Shown: positions 48,949 to 64,000, counted from the stretch's first letter. The stretch is 64,000 nt of DNA from Candidatus Vecturithrix granuli (GCA_000739535.1 DF820472.1:227588-291587), one strand, 5' to 3'. Numbers and translations are program-made. Notes: generated by a model not told the origin, from the sequence alone.

Positions 48949-49968
48949 TTACTTTCTGGAACACACCGAGGTACTGCTACGAATCGTTAAACGCGGCTTG
49001 AGCACGATTTGATGGGGGTTTTCTTCATTCCCCCGGATTTTTTCCAGCAGAATCTCTGCGGCTTTTCTACCGATTTCAAGCATGGGTTGATGAACTGTGG
49101 TAAGAGGGACTTCAAAAAATTCAGCAAAGGCAATATCGTCGTAGCCAACTAAGGAAATATCTGCCGGCACCTTGAGTTTCGCTTCACGGATTGCCCGAAA
49201 AGCCCCCAGTGCAAGCAGATCATTATAGGCAAATATCGCCGAAATATCCTGGACAAATTGGAGCAGATCTTTTGCCAGATAATAGCCGCTTTCAACGGTA
49301 TTATCACTCGTTCGCAGTAATATGGGATCAAACGCAATTCCTGCCTCAGTCAGGGCATCTTGATACCCGCGTATTCGTTCTCCGGCGCTTGATTGTGAAT
49401 CAAGTCCGGCAATGTGTGCAATGCGTATATGGCCTAACTTGAGTAAGTGTTCAGTCGCCAGAAATGCGCCATAGCGATTGTCATTGACAACATACCCAAT
49501 CTTCCCTTCTTGAAAACGTTGCGACAGGGCAATGGTCGGCAGAGAAATCTTTTCGAGTTGTTCAAGAATATATTCAGGATTCACTACAGAACCGATCAAC
49601 AGGCCATCCACCTCTTGCTGACAAAAATAGGAAAAAAGATCCTGTTCTCTTGATTCCTGGCGATAACTGCATCCGAAAAGAAAATTGGCTCGTTCCTGCC
49701 ATAACACTTGTTCAATCCCTTGCACAATTTTGGCGTAATATGGATTGAGAATATCCTGAATAAGTACCCCGATTTTCAGAACATCATTGTCGGGCGGAGG
49801 CTGCTGCGGAATTACATAGCCGAGTTCTTCAGCCAAATGAAAAATGCTTGCTCTGGTTCGCTCACTGACATCCGGCTTATTGCGTAGGGCGCGTGACACC
49901 GTGTTCACTGAAACTCCGGCTTTAATCGCAATATCTCGCAACCTGGCTGTTTTCTTTTTTGTCCTCAC
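48949..49968 (-). CDS. LacI-family transcriptional regulator
   Basis: A 339-residue regulator. The helix-turn-helix and hinge are clear (RLRDIAIKAGVSVNTVSRALRNKPDVSERTRASIFHLAEELGYV), followed by a periplasmic-binding-protein-like sensor domain (IGVLIQDILNPYYAKIVQGIEQ ... VPADISLVGYDDIAFAEFFEVPLTTVHQP). It is divergent from the scyllo-inosose dehydrogenase-like gene, so it probably controls inositol or polyol use. A palindrome overlapping its own promoter (50079-50107) suggests autoregulation. Confidence 0.9.
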   Translation of the reverse strand: MRTKKKTARLRDIAIKAGVSVNTVSRALRNKPDVSERTRASIFHLAEELGYVIPQQPPPDNDVLKIGVLIQDILNPYYAKIVQGIEQVLWQERANFLFGCSYRQESREQDLFSYFCQQEVDGLLIGSVVNPEYILEQLEKISLPTIALSQRFQEGKIGYVVNDNRYGAFLATEHLLKLGHIRIAHIAGLDSQSSAGERIRGYQDALTEAGIAFDPILLRTSDNTVESGYYLAKDLLQFVQDISAIFAYNDLLALGAFRAIREAKLKVPADISLVGYDDIAFAEFFEVPLTTVHQPMLEIGRKAAEILLEKIRGNEENPHQIVLKPRLTIRSSTSVCSRK

Positions 49969-57629: not shown

Positions 57630-58666
57630 CAGCACTATTCATTACTATTAAACTGATAACCTGCATGTCGAAACCATCCTGCTATATCCTTTAGACTCAC
57701 CTGTTGAATCGCCTCAGTAATGGCTTTTTGAAGAATTGCAACGGTTCGAGCGGCCTGCTTTCGAAGCCAGGCTTTCAGCTTGGACCAACATGCTTCGATC
57801 GGATTGAACTCCGGAGAATAGGCTGGTAAAAACTTCACCTTCGCGCCATGCGCCTCAATGAGTTCTTGAAGACGCTCCCGGCGATGAAACGAGACGTTGT
57901 CCCAGATCACCACCTTGCCAGGCCGAAGCTGAGGCACAAGAATCTGGTCCACAAAGGCCTCAAACACATCGCCATTGACAGTTCCCTCAATCTCTGTCCC
58001 ACCAAGAAACCCCTCGAGCGACAAGGCTCCGATCAGGCTCAGGCGGGTGCCTTTGCCACCGGGTTCATAAGACACGGCCCGCTTACCACAGGGCGCATAG
58101 CCATAGGCTCGACTCATCCCGGTGACCCAGCCCATCTCGTCCACGACGATCAGATCTTCTCCACGCAGCGTTTTTTGATCCTCCTGAAACTCCTGCCGGG
58201 CCTGTTTGACATCATCTCTCAGTTGCTCTTCGGCACGCTTCGCCTTTTTTTTCGCGTGATGCCCAACCGCCGAAGAGCCCGGCTGATCGTCGGTTGACTC
58301 ATCCCCCCCAGTCTCAGCAGCAAATTCATCGCGCAACTCCACTTGTGAACGGTCTGTTTTCCCTTCAATGAGGCCTCGCAGCACATCCTCTCCGGCAGCA
58401 TCTATCAGAAAGGTTTTGCCGTTCGCTGCTGGTTTCGGTGCAAGTGTCCCTGTCTCTCGCCATTGGTTGACAAAATTCTTCACAGAACTCTCATTGACTC
58501 GGAATCGTTCTGCGACGTTCGCATAGGAAAGTTGCCCTTCCTCGTAAACCTCGACTATGCGTGTTCGTAAATCGGTTGAAATAGGTTTCATCTTCTGATC
58601 TCCCAATACGTTAAGTGATGAAACCATAATGGATAACTCCCCAGTTAAACGCAAGTGATAATGCTG
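57630..58666 (-). mobile_element. IS630-family insertion sequence
   Basis: The ends CAGCACTATTCATTACTATT (from 57630) and, reversed, CAGCATTATCACTTGCGTTT (from 58666 backward) are imperfect terminal inverted repeats of about 25 bases. TA dinucleotides flank both ends (57628-57629, 58667-58668), as expected for IS630/Tc1-type insertion with TA duplication. Length 1037 bp. It contains one transposase gene (57635-58591). Confidence 0.87.
57635..58591 (-). CDS. IS630-family transposase with two compensating frame changes
   Basis: About 318 residues. The N-terminal helix-turn-helix (DLRTRIVEVYEEGQLSYANVAERFRVNESSVKNFVNQWRETG) and the DDE catalytic core (VVDEMGWV, VIWDNVSFHR, SPEFNPIEACWSKLK) are intact in one frame. 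Between them about 17 residues after ETGG are out of frame: the expected MSQPTISRALRRLGITR is encoded in another frame between a run of seven G (plus-strand C 58303-58309) and a run of eight A (plus-strand T 58245-58252). The two shifts compensate. Either they are homopolymer errors, a decayed gene, or recoding. Confidence 0.85.
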   Translation of the reverse strand: MKPISTDLRTRIVEVYEEGQLSYANVAERFRVNESSVKNFVNQWRETGTLAPKPAANGKTFLIDAAGEDVLRGLIEGKTDRSQVELRDEFAAETGGDESTDDQPGSSAVGHHAKKKAKRAEEQLRDDVKQARQEFQEDQKTLRGEDLIVVDEMGWVTGMSRAYGYAPCGKRAVSYEPGGKGTRLSLIGALSLEGFLGGTEIEGTVNGDVFEAFVDQILVPQLRPGKVVIWDNVSFHRRERLQELIEAHGAKVKFLPAYSPEFNPIEACWSKLKAWLRKQAARTVAILQKAITEAIQQVSLKDIAGWFRHAGYQFNSNE

Positions 58667-59075: not shown

Positions 59076-61088
59076 TTATGTTTCCCACCGTAAGTGTTGA
59101 ATTTGGGGAATCACGGCTTCTGTTGCTTCTTTGCCGCGCTGGATCAATTTATCGGCGTTAAAGAATTCCGACCAGGAAATATCGCCGACGTCAGGATTAA
59201 TATGGATATTGGCCTGGGTCGTTTTAATTGTTGCCAACTCATATTGCAAACTCTGCAACGACCGCATCGCAATATCAAAGACTGGCAAAAGAGGCGAACG
59301 TGACACTGCGAGTTCCCCTTGTTTGCGCGAGCGGCGTAAGGAGTTGAAACTTTCTTGCAGAGAGGGGGTCACATTGACAGCCATCACCAGATCCGCGCCG
59401 TTCTTCACAAGGGTATTCACCGGCACCGGATCAGCAATCGATCCATCAATCAGAAATCTGCCAGAGTATGCCAGAGGGGTAAATATCCCAGGGATCGAAA
59501 GGCTGGCGCGTACTGCTAACCGCACATTTCCTTTTTCATAGACCACTTCTTCGCCTGAATTAATATCCAGAGCAATAACGGATAATGGGATTTGCAGATC
59601 GCTGAAATCCGGGTCGCCCACAACATTCCGATACAAGCGATCGACTCGTGATCCGCTAAAAATGCCAATGCCAAGCCGAAGCAAGCGAGGATCCCAGATC
59701 GTGCGGGTTTTTCGAAAAAAGCGAGTCAGAGCCTTGCCATAATATTTTAGATCCAGCACATCCGGCACAGTTAACCGCAGCAGACCCAACTTGGATCCCC
59801 ATTTGAGCACGGCAGCTTCGATCGTTTCGATCGGAACTCCGGCGGCATAAGCCGAACCAATTAAGGCACCCGCGCTTGATCCGGCAATCATGTCAATCGG
59901 GATACCGTGTTGTTCCAGAGCTTGAAAAACGCCGATATGCGCCATCCCACGCGCTGAGCCACCGCCCAGAGCCAATCCGATCTTTTTACCGCCAATATCG
60001 CGCGCAATTCGGCCAAAAGCCCGACTCAGTTCACTGTGCGGTGATCCAATGACACAAGGGATACCGGTCGTTAGGAACTGGTCGATTGCCTCGTAATCTC
60101 TGGGTAAAAAATGATAGTGTTTTTCTCGAAGCAATTTCTTATCAATAGAGGCATCAGAAAGGTTGATCACCGTCCGTAATTTTTGATGATCTAAAATCCC
60201 TAATGGATACTCCTGGGCAATATTCGAGGTCACAAAGAGCATGATATTCGATAAATCAATCGCTTCAAACGTACTCCGGCTCAGTTTTGAACTGGTGTCA
60301 ATGATCACGTAATCATATAAGGTTTTGAGGATGCCCAGAATTTTGGCAATGGATTCACGCCCTTTGGTTTCTTCCATGAGTAATTCTGGCGAGACCGAAA
60401 TCAGATCGAGCATCGAGTGGTGTGAGGTGATCTTGCTTTCAATATACTCCTGATTAATGCTGGACGTATCAACATAACGTACAGGGTCAATTTTGAGCAT
60501 CGAGGCAATCCCTTGCTCTTTCATGCCCATATCCACAAGAATCGTCCGACATTTGGTTTCCTGCATCAGACTCACGCCCAAATTAATTGTGACAATGGAT
60601 TTACCAATATTCTCCTCTGTGGCATACACACAAATAATCGGATATTTCACCCGTTTTTTCTTCTGCGTGTCTTCATGATCAAGATAGAGTTTCTGGCACA
60701 ACAAGCGGCTCAAATTATATAACACTGTCGTATGGTGTTTAATCACCTCTTCAAACGAGGCTTTATCAGTTTCAAATACGTCGGCATCGATTACGATTTC
60801 GATTGAGGTCAAGCGGGGTTCGCTGGCCAGCAGAGGCATATCTCCGAAAAACGCTCCCGGAGTCAGGATATCAAGTTCCACTTCTTCGCCTTGCTCATTT
60901 TTCTTGAGTGCCTGAGCCTGGCCGGAAAGGAGAATATAAAATCGGGAACTAATTTCCCCTTCCTGACAAACGCGCGCGCCGCGAGGATAATAGCGTCTTT
61001 CAAAGATTGGAGCAATGCGCGCTAAATCCTCTTCAGGGACATTTTTAAAAATTTTGTTATTCTGAAGTAAAAACAGTGTATCTGGCAT
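59076..61088 (-). CDS. Cyclic-nucleotide-binding / MinD-like / patatin fusion protein
   Basis: About 670 residues in three parts. Residues 1 to about 135: cyclic-nucleotide-binding (Crp-like) beta-barrel (IFERRYYPRGARVCQEGEISSRFYILLSGQAQAL, GAFFGDMPLL). About 145-375: a MinD/ParA-like fold with a degenerate P-loop EENIGKSIVTINLGVSL, ILVDMG and DYVIIDTSSKLS. About 380-670: patatin with oxyanion loop GGGSARG, nucleophile GSSAG and catalytic Asp in LIDGS. The lipase site is complete, so it is probably a regulated phospholipase. It begins ten bases after the end of a paralogue that lacks the first domain. ATG at 61088 is used; the upstream extension starts at TTG. Confidence 0.85.
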   Translation of the reverse strand: MPDTLFLLQNNKIFKNVPEEDLARIAPIFERRYYPRGARVCQEGEISSRFYILLSGQAQALKKNEQGEEVELDILTPGAFFGDMPLLASEPRLTSIEIVIDADVFETDKASFEEVIKHHTTVLYNLSRLLCQKLYLDHEDTQKKKRVKYPIICVYATEENIGKSIVTINLGVSLMQETKCRTILVDMGMKEQGIASMLKIDPVRYVDTSSINQEYIESKITSHHSMLDLISVSPELLMEETKGRESIAKILGILKTLYDYVIIDTSSKLSRSTFEAIDLSNIMLFVTSNIAQEYPLGILDHQKLRTVINLSDASIDKKLLREKHYHFLPRDYEAIDQFLTTGIPCVIGSPHSELSRAFGRIARDIGGKKIGLALGGGSARGMAHIGVFQALEQHGIPIDMIAGSSAGALIGSAYAAGVPIETIEAAVLKWGSKLGLLRLTVPDVLDLKYYGKALTRFFRKTRTIWDPRLLRLGIGIFSGSRVDRLYRNVVGDPDFSDLQIPLSVIALDINSGEEVVYEKGNVRLAVRASLSIPGIFTPLAYSGRFLIDGSIADPVPVNTLVKNGADLVMAVNVTPSLQESFNSLRRSRKQGELAVSRSPLLPVFDIAMRSLQSLQYELATIKTTQANIHINPDVGDISWSEFFNADKLIQRGKEATEAVIPQIQHLRWET

Positions 61089-61098
61089 ACTTGTGTGT

Positions 61099-62616
61099 TT
61101 AACCCCATTTGAGTTTTTCAAGTTCAGGGATCACAGCTTCAGCCGCCGCAATACCAAAATCAATTAATTCATGTACCTTATGAAACTCCCGCCAGGAAAT
61201 CCCCTTGATGTTCGGGCGAATAAAAATATCGGGGCTTACACGTTTGAGGTTGTCCGGACTATCAGGCGTATCGGTCAACCGTTCCATTAAACTATCAAAC
61301 GTGGCAGCCACCAGGGCGTAATTCTCTTTGGTCGCCTGCTGGTCCGCATCACTTTTTCCCAGAGATTTTTGGAGAACATAGCGTTGACTTTCCGCCGGCG
61401 ATGGCGTTACCACGACGGCGACAGTTACATTGGCACCCATATTTTTCAGCGGATACACCGGCGTGGGATAAATCACGGAACTATCGATCAAATGACGCTC
61501 TGCATGTTTAAATGGCACGAATAATTGTGGGATCCTCATGCTTGCCTCAATCGCATCCAGGACTTTTCCTTCCCGAAATACCACGTGTTCGCCGGTACGA
61601 ATATCTATTGCGACGACATTCACCGGAATGAGCAATTCCTCAAAATAGACATCGTGTAACAAGAGATCGCATAATTGTTGTAATTTCGCTTCTTTACAAA
61701 ACGCCTGCTGAAAGAGCCGCCGTAATCCAAACGCGGGCAGTGGCCGGCATGACTGGGCCCAATCAATGACACGCTGCTTGATTTGGCGAAGTTCAAGGCC
61801 TGTGGCATACGCTGCACCCAGCAACGCGCCAAAACTGACACCGGTCAACATGTCAATGGCAATACGATTCCGTTCCAGCACCTCAAGAATCCCTAATTGG
61901 CTCAAACCCAGGGCGACTCCGCCAGTCAGGGCAATGCCGAAGCGTTTTTCTCCGATGTCGCGGGCAAGTCGTCCGATCACCTGACTGAGAGGGCGATACG
62001 GTGCCTGGATGACAAAGGGAATGCCGCTTCTTCGAAAATTCTCGACTGCGCCTGCGTCGAACGGTGCCAGATATAGTCCGGCCTGATGACCTGTCAGCCG
62101 CCCGGTCCCGGATTCATCCGGCATGTTGACCACAACACGCGTGTTGTGGTGTCCGATAATGCCAATCGGCTGTTCATAGTCGGGTGAAGACACCACCATA
62201 ATGAACACATCCGATTCATCAATCACCTCATACGCTATGCGATTCAAATGCGTCGAAATGTCAACTAAAATATAGTCGAAATGGCGGCGTAACTGCTCAA
62301 AAAGCGATGTTACAAACGCTTTGGAAGTGATTTCTTCGTGAATAATCCTGGAATCGACGCTTAAGATCGCTAATTGCGAACTATGCCGCTGAATATAGTC
62401 ATGAAGCCCTTCGCTCGGAATTTCCCGATCTTGGAGCAATTTTGCTCCGGGAAACTTCAACATCGACCACGCCGGGCCCCCATCATCAGCAGAGCTTAAA
62501 TCCACAAGGATCACTGTTTTTTGAGTCTCATGAATCAAACTAACTCCCAAATTCACTGTCAGGGTGGTTTTTCCGATTTTCGCCTCAGAACTATAGATAG
62601 TGAGGATTTTTGCCAT
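61099..62616 (-). CDS. MinD/ParA-like ATPase-patatin fusion protein
   Basis: A 505-residue paralogue of the next gene without the cyclic-nucleotide domain. Residues 1-220: MinD/ParA-like, P-loop SEAKIGKTTLTVNLGVSL (GKTT intact, the signature lysine of KGGVGKT replaced by Glu), ILVDLS and FDYILVDISTHLN. About 225-505: patatin with nucleophile GVSFG and catalytic Asp in LIDSS, but the oxyanion loop reads TGGVALG instead of GGGxRG, so activity may be weak or lost. Here the ATPase looks better kept and the lipase worse than in its partner, as if the two act as a pair. First gene of the operon. Confidence 0.85.
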   Translation of the reverse strand: MAKILTIYSSEAKIGKTTLTVNLGVSLIHETQKTVILVDLSSADDGGPAWSMLKFPGAKLLQDREIPSEGLHDYIQRHSSQLAILSVDSRIIHEEITSKAFVTSLFEQLRRHFDYILVDISTHLNRIAYEVIDESDVFIMVVSSPDYEQPIGIIGHHNTRVVVNMPDESGTGRLTGHQAGLYLAPFDAGAVENFRRSGIPFVIQAPYRPLSQVIGRLARDIGEKRFGIALTGGVALGLSQLGILEVLERNRIAIDMLTGVSFGALLGAAYATGLELRQIKQRVIDWAQSCRPLPAFGLRRLFQQAFCKEAKLQQLCDLLLHDVYFEELLIPVNVVAIDIRTGEHVVFREGKVLDAIEASMRIPQLFVPFKHAERHLIDSSVIYPTPVYPLKNMGANVTVAVVVTPSPAESQRYVLQKSLGKSDADQQATKENYALVAATFDSLMERLTDTPDSPDNLKRVSPDIFIRPNIKGISWREFHKVHELIDFGIAAAEAVIPELEKLKWG

Positions 62617-63001
62617 AATATCTCTTCTCTATGAGTAACATGCCAGAAACTCAAAGGTCATTTCCAGGTTTTGTCAACAGCCATTTCCCATACTCCCTAG
62701 TATCTAAAAGTATAGGATCGGCAAATACTTCCCGTCAAGAAGAAATTTTCCTTGAAAAATTTTTCTGAAAATGCTTTTCTTCTTAAAAAAGTCTTGATTA
62801 TATAAGTAACAACTGAGTAAAATGACGTTTCAAGAACAAAATGGTTTCTATATAAAAAAATTTTCTTTCAATAGACATGATCGGAAATAAGATGTATTGC
62901 CAACGCTTTAGCGTTGTTTCAGGCGTTTTCAGGAATGCTGAAGCGTTTACTACAAGCCAATTTCGTTATTTCCGATAATGTTTAATAAAGAGGAAACACA
63001 C
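62617..63001. other. Divergent intergenic region
   Basis: No gene. It separates the minus-strand patatin operon from the plus-strand coiled-coil gene and is AT-rich. It contains an imperfect inverted repeat bounded by TCGGAAATAA (from 62881) and TTATTTCCGA (to about 62979), with an inner AACGCTTTAGCGTT palindrome (62902-62915). TTGATTATATAAG near 62793 is a possible promoter element. Confidence 0.5.
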
Positions 63002-64000
63002 ATGAGAATATCGGTTTTTTTTACCTTCTGCTGTACATTCCTGCTGATATGTTCAGTATCGGCGCAAGCGAAGACGGAAGAAGAATATCAACAAGAAATT
63101 CTTGCGCTGCGGAAACACAACACGCATTTAGAAAATCAGCTTGAGCAGGTCAGTACTGATCTCAAGCGTTCTACTGAAGAAGGGAGAATTCTCCAACGCC
63201 AAATCGCGAAAATGGTTCAAGAAGGAGAACAACATGCAAAAGAATTGCAAGAGACGCGAGAGAGTATGAAGCAAGTCCGAAGCCAGTTGGAAACATTACT
63301 TGCCCAACAAACAGAGGCTTCAAAAGTATCGCAAAAACAACAGCAGATCGAAGACCAGTTGGCTCAAACTCGTCAACACGCTCAGCAATTGGAAAAAGAT
63401 CTACAAAAACTCACACAAGAGAAGCGTGAGCTTGAAAAACAGCTTGCTGCTGCAAGCAAACAACCATCCACAGAGACGACGCAAGAACTTCAGGCGCAAC
63501 AGAGCGAATTAGTGCAAATGCGCGATCAGTTCAAAGCCAATTTGGCGTTATTGCATGAGCGTGAACAGGCATTAGAGCAGGCATCTCAAAAAATTGAGGC
63601 TTTGCAGCAAGAAGTCTCGCTGCTGCAAATCGTGGTAAAACAACAAAAAGAACAAACCCAGGAAGAAGAAGTCTTGAAAGGGCAGCAAACCCAGGAACGC
63701 CAGCGTATTGCTGAATTAGAAGCCGCCCTGGCTGAGATGAATGCCCGGTTGGAGCGGATGGCGGAGGAAAAAGCTGGCCTTGAGACCCAACTCAGTCAAT
63801 CGGGACAAAGCGAACTTGAGGCAGCCAAACGAAAGGCAGCAGATCTGCAAAATGAAGTTGATACCCTTCGAAACTGGGTAAAACAACAGAAAGAACAATC
63901 TCAACAGAAACAACCGCCATCCATTGAAACACAGAAGCGTATCAACGAGTTAGAAGCCACTCTGGCAGAAGTGAATGCCAAACTTCTGCGCACGGTTGAT
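63002..64000 (+). CDS. Secreted coiled-coil protein (partial, runs off the window)
   Basis: At least 333 residues; the frame is open at the right edge. A signal peptide (1 to about 24, SVSAQA) is followed by almost uninterrupted heptad-rich, Gln/Glu/Lys-rich coiled coil. An internal repeat of exactly 81 residues is seen: VVKQQKEQTQE...RIAELEAALAEMNARLER and WVKQQKEQSQQ...RINELEATLAEVNAKLLR. An AAGAGGAAA site precedes the ATG. The function is unknown; a structural or scaffold role in the envelope is likely. The missing C-terminus may carry the defining domain. Confidence 0.85.
   Translation, partial: MRISVFFTFCCTFLLICSVSAQAKTEEEYQQEILALRKHNTHLENQLEQVSTDLKRSTEEGRILQRQIAKMVQEGEQHAKELQETRESMKQVRSQLETLLAQQTEASKVSQKQQQIEDQLAQTRQHAQQLEKDLQKLTQEKRELEKQLAAASKQPSTETTQELQAQQSELVQMRDQFKANLALLHEREQALEQASQKIEALQQEVSLLQIVVKQQKEQTQEEEVLKGQQTQERQRIAELEAALAEMNARLERMAEEKAGLETQLSQSGQSELEAAKRKAADLQNEVDTLRNWVKQQKEQSQQKQPPSIETQKRINELEATLAEVNAKLLRTVD

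Follow-up and report, generated by a model that had tools for sequence, protein, structure and literature searches.

A MinD/ParA-fold domain inside a predicted cyclic-nucleotide-responsive patatin lipase of Candidatus Vecturithrix granuli

Two neighboring genes of Candidatus Vecturithrix granuli, referred to here as A and B, each join a MinD/ParA-fold domain to a patatin lipase domain, and B additionally begins with a Crp-type cyclic-nucleotide-binding (cNMP) domain. We consider it probable that B is a cNMP-gated membrane phospholipase resembling those of the neuropathy target esterase (NTE) family and containing a nucleotide-binding, hydrolysis-impaired MinD-type module, and that A is a divergent paralogue either modulating B or drifting out of function. 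The lasting value of this finding would lie in the bridge from MinD-type switches to the NTE middle domain, the A-B pair itself being only of local interest.

Gene layout and domain composition

The host is an uncultured filamentous bacterium, and the relatives of the source genome fall in the candidate phylum KSB3, whose filaments are described as gliding, anaerobic and rich in signaling genes (PMC4312070). In the window, that is the whole stretch of 64,000 nucleotides under analysis, an ORF search placed A and B side by side on the minus strand, where an earlier note on this DNA had located them (Table 1). The TTG at 61121, inside A, which the ORF finder chose as the start of B, is less likely than the ATG at 61088; the latter most likely starts B, because the orthologue in the closest relative (G001) begins at the same MPDTLF. 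An overlap of the two genes was rejected on this basis, leaving a gap of 10 nt between the stop codon of A and the ATG of B, and the genes are probably cotranscribed. Scanning the neighbors from window position 48949 to near the end of contig C12 revealed PAS-GGDEF, histidine kinase, transposase, coiled-coil/PD40, signal peptidase, LPG_synthase_TM and FHA genes. The transposase gene, of the DDE_3 type (IS630-like), lies immediately downstream of B (57635-58654), and a divergent gene (62978-64000) encodes a coiled-coil protein that looks secreted and carries PD40 repeats at its C-terminus. This coiled-coil gene adjoins B in two KSB3 genomes; in the window, A intervenes.

Table 1. Features of genes A and B (window positions) and of a related gene pair found in KSB3 genomes (locus positions)
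Feature	Position	Strand	Evidence or description
Gene A	61099..62616	-	505 aa; MinD-like residues 1-222, patatin residues 223-505; cNMP domain absent
A MinD/ParA-fold domain	61951..62616	-	Pfam AAA_31 2.2e-09; 1hyq MinD Z 24.8 over 216 residues
A P-loop EAKIGKT	62566..62586	-	Glu at signature Lys position; Walker A Lys/Thr kept (alignment to 1hyq and ParA)
A patatin domain, PlpD-like	61102..61950	-	Pfam Patatin 4.6e-19; 5fya Z 28.9
A altered oxyanion loop TGGVALG, Arg lost	61906..61926	-	Sequence, alignment
A nucleophile elbow GVSFG, Ser kept	61828..61842	-	Sequence, alignment
A DSS replacing DG[GS], Asp kept	61477..61485	-	Sequence, alignment
Gene B	59076..61088	-	670 aa from ATG 61088; cNMP-binding 1-145, MinD-like 146-367, patatin 368-670
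B cyclic-nucleotide-binding domain	60654..61088	-	Pfam cNMP_binding 1.6e-19; GlxR-cAMP Z 21
B phosphate-binding cassette FFGDMPLLASEPRLTS	60804..60851	-	Sequence, alignment
B MinD/ParA-fold domain	59988..60653	-	Pfam AAA_31 4e-07; 1hyq Z 25.2
B P-loop EENIGKS	60597..60617	-	TEExIGK[ST] in orthologues; sequence, alignment
B patatin domain, full catalytic motifs	59079..59987	-	Pfam Patatin 2.7e-30; 5fya Z 31.9
B oxyanion loop GGGSARG	59946..59966	-	Sequence, alignment
B nucleophile elbow GSSAG	59868..59882	-	Sequence, alignment
B catalytic Asp in DGS	59439..59447	-	Sequence, alignment
C16-type predicted pseudo-lipase	L011:5456-7405 (-), L050:5030-6970 (-), L048:4789-6753 (+), L049:5204-7159 (-)		
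DUF4388 gene	L011:7450-8277 (-), L050:7026-7820 (-), L048:4003-4764 (+), L049:7193-7954 (-)		

Pfam matches of both proteins were counted above the curated cut-offs, which AAA_31 exceeds in A as well as in B. In the predicted structures (mean pLDDT 79.8 for A and 78.4 for B), the MinD structure 1hyq matches residues 2-222 of A and 149-366 of B, and a profile of six P-loop-bearing middle domains matched MinD/ParA entries of the PDB at E values of 2e-09 to 1e-07, the alignment to 1hyq spanning its complete domain (3-221). Since fold and profile concur over the whole domain, a chance P-loop was rejected. The earlier note had described two adjacent MinD/ParA-patatin genes, the second with a Crp-like domain, and had proposed a profile search against MinD/ParA; Pfam, the predicted structures and the PDB search agree with its description.

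Its reading of the signature lysine was likewise correct: alignment to 1hyq and ParA places Glu at this position in both proteins (EAKIGKT in A, EENIGKS in B), the lysine is also absent from the middle-domain profile, and neither A nor B carries the deviant Walker A pattern KGGxGK[ST]. The Walker A Lys (Lys16 in A, Lys163 in B), the Ser/Thr and the Walker B Asp are retained in both middle domains; both have lost the D-x-D motif of switch I at its second Asp (VDLSS in A, VDMGM in B). These motifs suggest that nucleotide is bound but hydrolyzed poorly or in an altered way. The lipase motifs quoted in the note (TGGVALG in A; GGGSARG, GSSAG and DGS in B) were confirmed, and A was found to keep the catalytic Ser and Asp as well. 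As a sequence from another genome (L070) likewise misses the oxyanion Arg and retains the other lipase motifs, A cannot be called dead from its oxyanion loop alone.

Residues 3-145 of B match Crp-type cNMP domains in the predicted structure, with Z about 21. In its cassette (FGDM..PRLTS), the phosphate-binding Arg is retained and Asp replaces the usual ribose-contact Glu, residue roles that we assume by assignment from CRP/PKA; the ligand is uncertain because of this Asp. With 17 class III cyclase domain matches in the source genome, cyclic nucleotides are likely made, which renders a cAMP or cGMP signal plausible.

Distribution of the family and the place of gene A

Ten patatin matches were found in the source genome, five of them with a MinD-like domain: A, B, two further cNMP proteins (C19 and C16) and a REC-cNMP protein (C13). 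Proteins of the order cNMP-MinD-like-patatin occur one to five times per genome in four KSB3 genomes, and in other phyla too. B has orthologues in G001 (69% identity) and G003 (59%). The motif TEExIGK[ST] persists in three orthologues of 58-69% identity, and the KSB3 genomes searched show conservation of the B clade throughout the order. Across 385 surveyed genomes, full-length MinD-like-patatin matches were few, comprising KSB3, three genomes of one family in one non-KSB3 phylum (G032, G179 and G314), G176, G071 and G212. The P-loop is lost in the former three and in G176, and intact in G071 (GPAGVGKT) and G212 (YADGAGKT), where the gene sits in the same neighborhood, after a YifB-like gene. 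In this non-KSB3 phylum the P-loop (GVGKT or GAGKT) is thus kept in two of two genomes, within a cNMP-MinD-patatin protein directly following the YifB/ComM-like gene (L091:2023-3870, minus strand; L092:3998-5887, plus strand). The phylum-wide searches around G071, G032, G176 and G212 covered two to three genomes each, so that large phyla are thinly sampled. A scan of viral contigs with B found no relatives, and a genome-contig scan on cNMP patterns returned the KSB3 MAG DOLJORAL78_50_49 plus four weak matches, to the N-terminal cNMP part only.

A usable P-loop is absent in about 16 of the 22 aligned family sequences, and the six keepers are divided between two distinct regions of the tree. This pattern is most simply explained by an ancestor with an intact P-loop and repeated later losses, in a tree of 22 sequences with a midpoint root only and several weakly supported forks; the MinD module thus appears recognizable in A and B and decayed in most relatives.

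Among the paralogues, the C16-type cNMP-MinD-like-patatin protein has its catalytic Ser replaced by Asn and lacks a P-loop in all four KSB3 genomes, which marks it by its motifs as a conserved pseudo-lipase. In the same four genomes it is preceded by a gene of 250-276 aa with a C-terminal DUF4388 domain; in contrast to A-B, this is a phylum-wide conserved pair. A further paralogue, in which a response-regulator receiver domain precedes cNMP, a MinD-like remnant and patatin, was seen in two genomes (L013:5572-8046, minus strand; L052:2804-5260, plus strand), in both followed by an AMP-dependent ligase-like gene.

Gene A stands apart from this family. In G001, B directly adjoins a homologue of the coiled-coil gene (37% identity, E 1e-19), with A absent and no room for it between the two. 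The three other KSB3 genomes searched and the matches from the survey of 385 genomes yielded no A-type protein, and within four KSB3 genomes every full-length match except A has an open frame of at least 644 aa, those translated carrying a cNMP domain. In the tree, A is a long-branched singleton (1.46 changes per column, compared with 0.13 for B). A recent tandem copying of B was considered as its origin; the long branch of A leaves a poorly supported fork, shared with the groups of B and C16, and favors no particular age or origin. With a KSB3 sample of three relatives besides the source genome, the A-B pair looks peculiar to one genome, and A is most likely a fast-diverging partner or decoy of B. 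The earlier note had presented the paired genes as new, had named a pair never conserved together elsewhere as grounds for refutation, and had credited A with the better P-loop. Neither claim held in the genomes searched: A was found in none of the relatives, which by the note's own standard counts against the pair, and it is the GK[ST] of B that is conserved in orthologues.

Proposed mode of action and alternatives

In the mechanism we favor, B would be a bacterial NTE-like phospholipase or lysophospholipase acting on a membrane substrate, in which the cNMP sensor and the central MinD-fold module jointly hold and release, or oligomerize, a PlpD-type patatin serine lipase. The module probably binds nucleotide through its intact GK[ST] P-loop and may couple sensor to lipase, perhaps by dimerization. 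As both the signature lysine and the second switch-I aspartate are missing in B, we expect a slow or non-hydrolyzing, nucleotide-dependent conformational or dimerization element rather than an oscillating MinD/ParA motor. A, the sensorless divergent paralogue, would most plausibly modulate B via hetero-oligomers, or else be drifting out of function.

A division of labor, as put forward in the earlier note, would make A the ATPase partner that steers or gates the cNMP-controlled lipase B within a dedicated two-gene system. The adjacency, common orientation and 10-nt spacing of the genes fit this idea, as do the GKTT, altered oxyanion loop and missing sensor of A. However, A too is devoid of the signature Lys and the second switch-I Asp, it retains the catalytic Ser and Asp with an oxyanion change shared by the otherwise intact L070, and B has a conserved P-loop of its own. 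We therefore judge such a system unlikely, and as a conserved one it is unsupported, since A is absent between B and the coiled-coil gene of the closest relative and from the other genomes searched. More weight, though well short of our preference, goes to the possibility that, as in NTE, the module of every family member is no more than a pseudo-NTPase scaffold, the GK[ST] of A and B being irrelevant. Loss of a recognizable P-loop in most relatives implies that the module can serve as a mere scaffold, and the switch-I and signature residues are gone even where GK[ST] persists. Against this, the three orthologues of B (58-69% identity) and both genomes of the non-KSB3 phylum with intact P-loops retain GK[ST], which makes drift unlikely.

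A role in phage defense, also raised by the note, would cast the proteins as effectors similar to CapV/CapE of CBASS, triggered by a cyclic (di)nucleotide. The patatin fold is indeed common to both (Z 21-26 in the predicted structures), and CBASS-lipase models give weak matches; however, the two proteins reach 25.9 and 24.7 bits with the CBASS patatin model NF041079, whose cut-off is 200, and the PADLOC matches are weak and confined to the patatin or cNMP region. No CD-NTase or other cyclic-dinucleotide synthase gene was found among the flanking genes scanned, the neighbors being those named above, and the B clade is conserved across the order within a wider family of several paralogues per genome. 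We thus regard an anti-phage function as highly improbable and retain the NTE-like, dual-domain control of B as the preferred reading.

Relation to NTE and other known systems

Pfam lists PF24179 as the 'Neuropathy Target Esterase family P-loop like domain'. It exceeded the cut-off in three genomes of our survey, and two scanned bacterial NTE proteins (L088 and L089) show the order cNMP-PF24179-patatin; no match over the cut-off was obtained in A, B, their paralogues or the rest of the source genome. The earlier note had considered a MinD-type domain within a cNMP-patatin protein to be new; the MinD/ParA fold is genuine, but its position is not new, as the NTE family has a P-loop-like domain in the same place. 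Comparing profile with profile (hhalign), the NTE middle domains matched those of the whole present family at E 3e-06 (reversed control, 0.056) and those of its P-loop-less members at E 6e-05 (reversed control, 0.33), with a confident core of about 42-48 columns. Homology of the two middle domains is likely on these alignments, albeit not proven. Of the NTE-family traits, a cNMP domain N-terminal to the catalytic region is present in B and absent in A, and a patatin domain with GxSxG and DG[GAS] is found in B (GSSAG and DGS), while A has GVSFG but DSS.

In human NTE, the matching stretch is flanked by the third cNMP site, which extends to 749, and by the phospholipase domain (981-1147) (PMC9025805); for the catalytic region (residues 681-1327), the literature essentially describes the patatin domain (PMC6995513). 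NTE acts on PC/LPC, with regulation by its cNMP region (PMC6995513, PMC9025805), and direct evidence for cyclic nucleotides binding NTE or altering its activity is described as lacking (PMC6995513). Our literature searches retrieved no paper tying the NTE middle region to MinD, and no solved PNPLA6/7 structure appeared by sequence among the best matches. As a tentative and rather speculative proposal, NTE-family phospholipases may descend from a MinD-type nucleotide-switched lipase, the NTE middle domain being a decayed MinD module and B-like proteins preserving it in working order, as lipases under the dual control of cyclic nucleotide and ATP/ADP. If so, the unexplained stretch of NTE between cNMP and patatin domains would be a degenerate MinD-type switch; the P-loop-intact bacterial relatives would suggest the nature of this region and the residues that once bound nucleotide, and would offer a simpler system for two-signal control of an NTE-like lipase.

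Among solved structures, the closest lipase fold is that of PlpD (5fqu, 5fya; Z 29-32, 30-34% identity), the passenger of a secreted type Vd autotransporter. Unlike PlpD, A and B have no beta-barrel domain and start straight at the MinD-like (A) or cNMP (B) domain. With the CBASS lipases CapV and CapE, B has in common a patatin lipase regulated, in its case by prediction, by a cyclic nucleotide; its sensor, however, is a separate Crp-type domain, its scores lie far under the CBASS cut-offs and a CD-NTase gene was not found nearby. The deviant Walker A ATPases (MinD, Soj, FlhG/FleN, BcsQ and McdA) share with A and B the whole-domain fold (1hyq Z about 25), the Walker A Lys-Ser/Thr and the Walker B Asp. 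A and B differ from them in the Glu at the signature Lys position and the absent second switch-I Asp, and carry a lipase in the place of MinD's membrane-targeting helix; loss of just the signature Lys is also known from McdA (SGGQGKT) and BcsQ (RGGVGTT) (PMC9178275, PMC8262871). Finally, B follows the NTE family (PNPLA6/PNPLA7, yeast NTE1 and the bacterial cNMP-NTE_Ploop-patatin proteins) in its order of cNMP, P-loop-like and patatin domains and in its lipase motifs, and the middle domains align with equal strand order and a common closing helix, both ending in an 'R.AR.I.G' segment that precedes the patatin GGG loop. In contrast to NTE, B has a single cNMP domain, and its middle domain is longer, MinD-recognizable and equipped with an intact GK[ST]; A lacks a cNMP domain altogether, and PF24179 matches neither protein.
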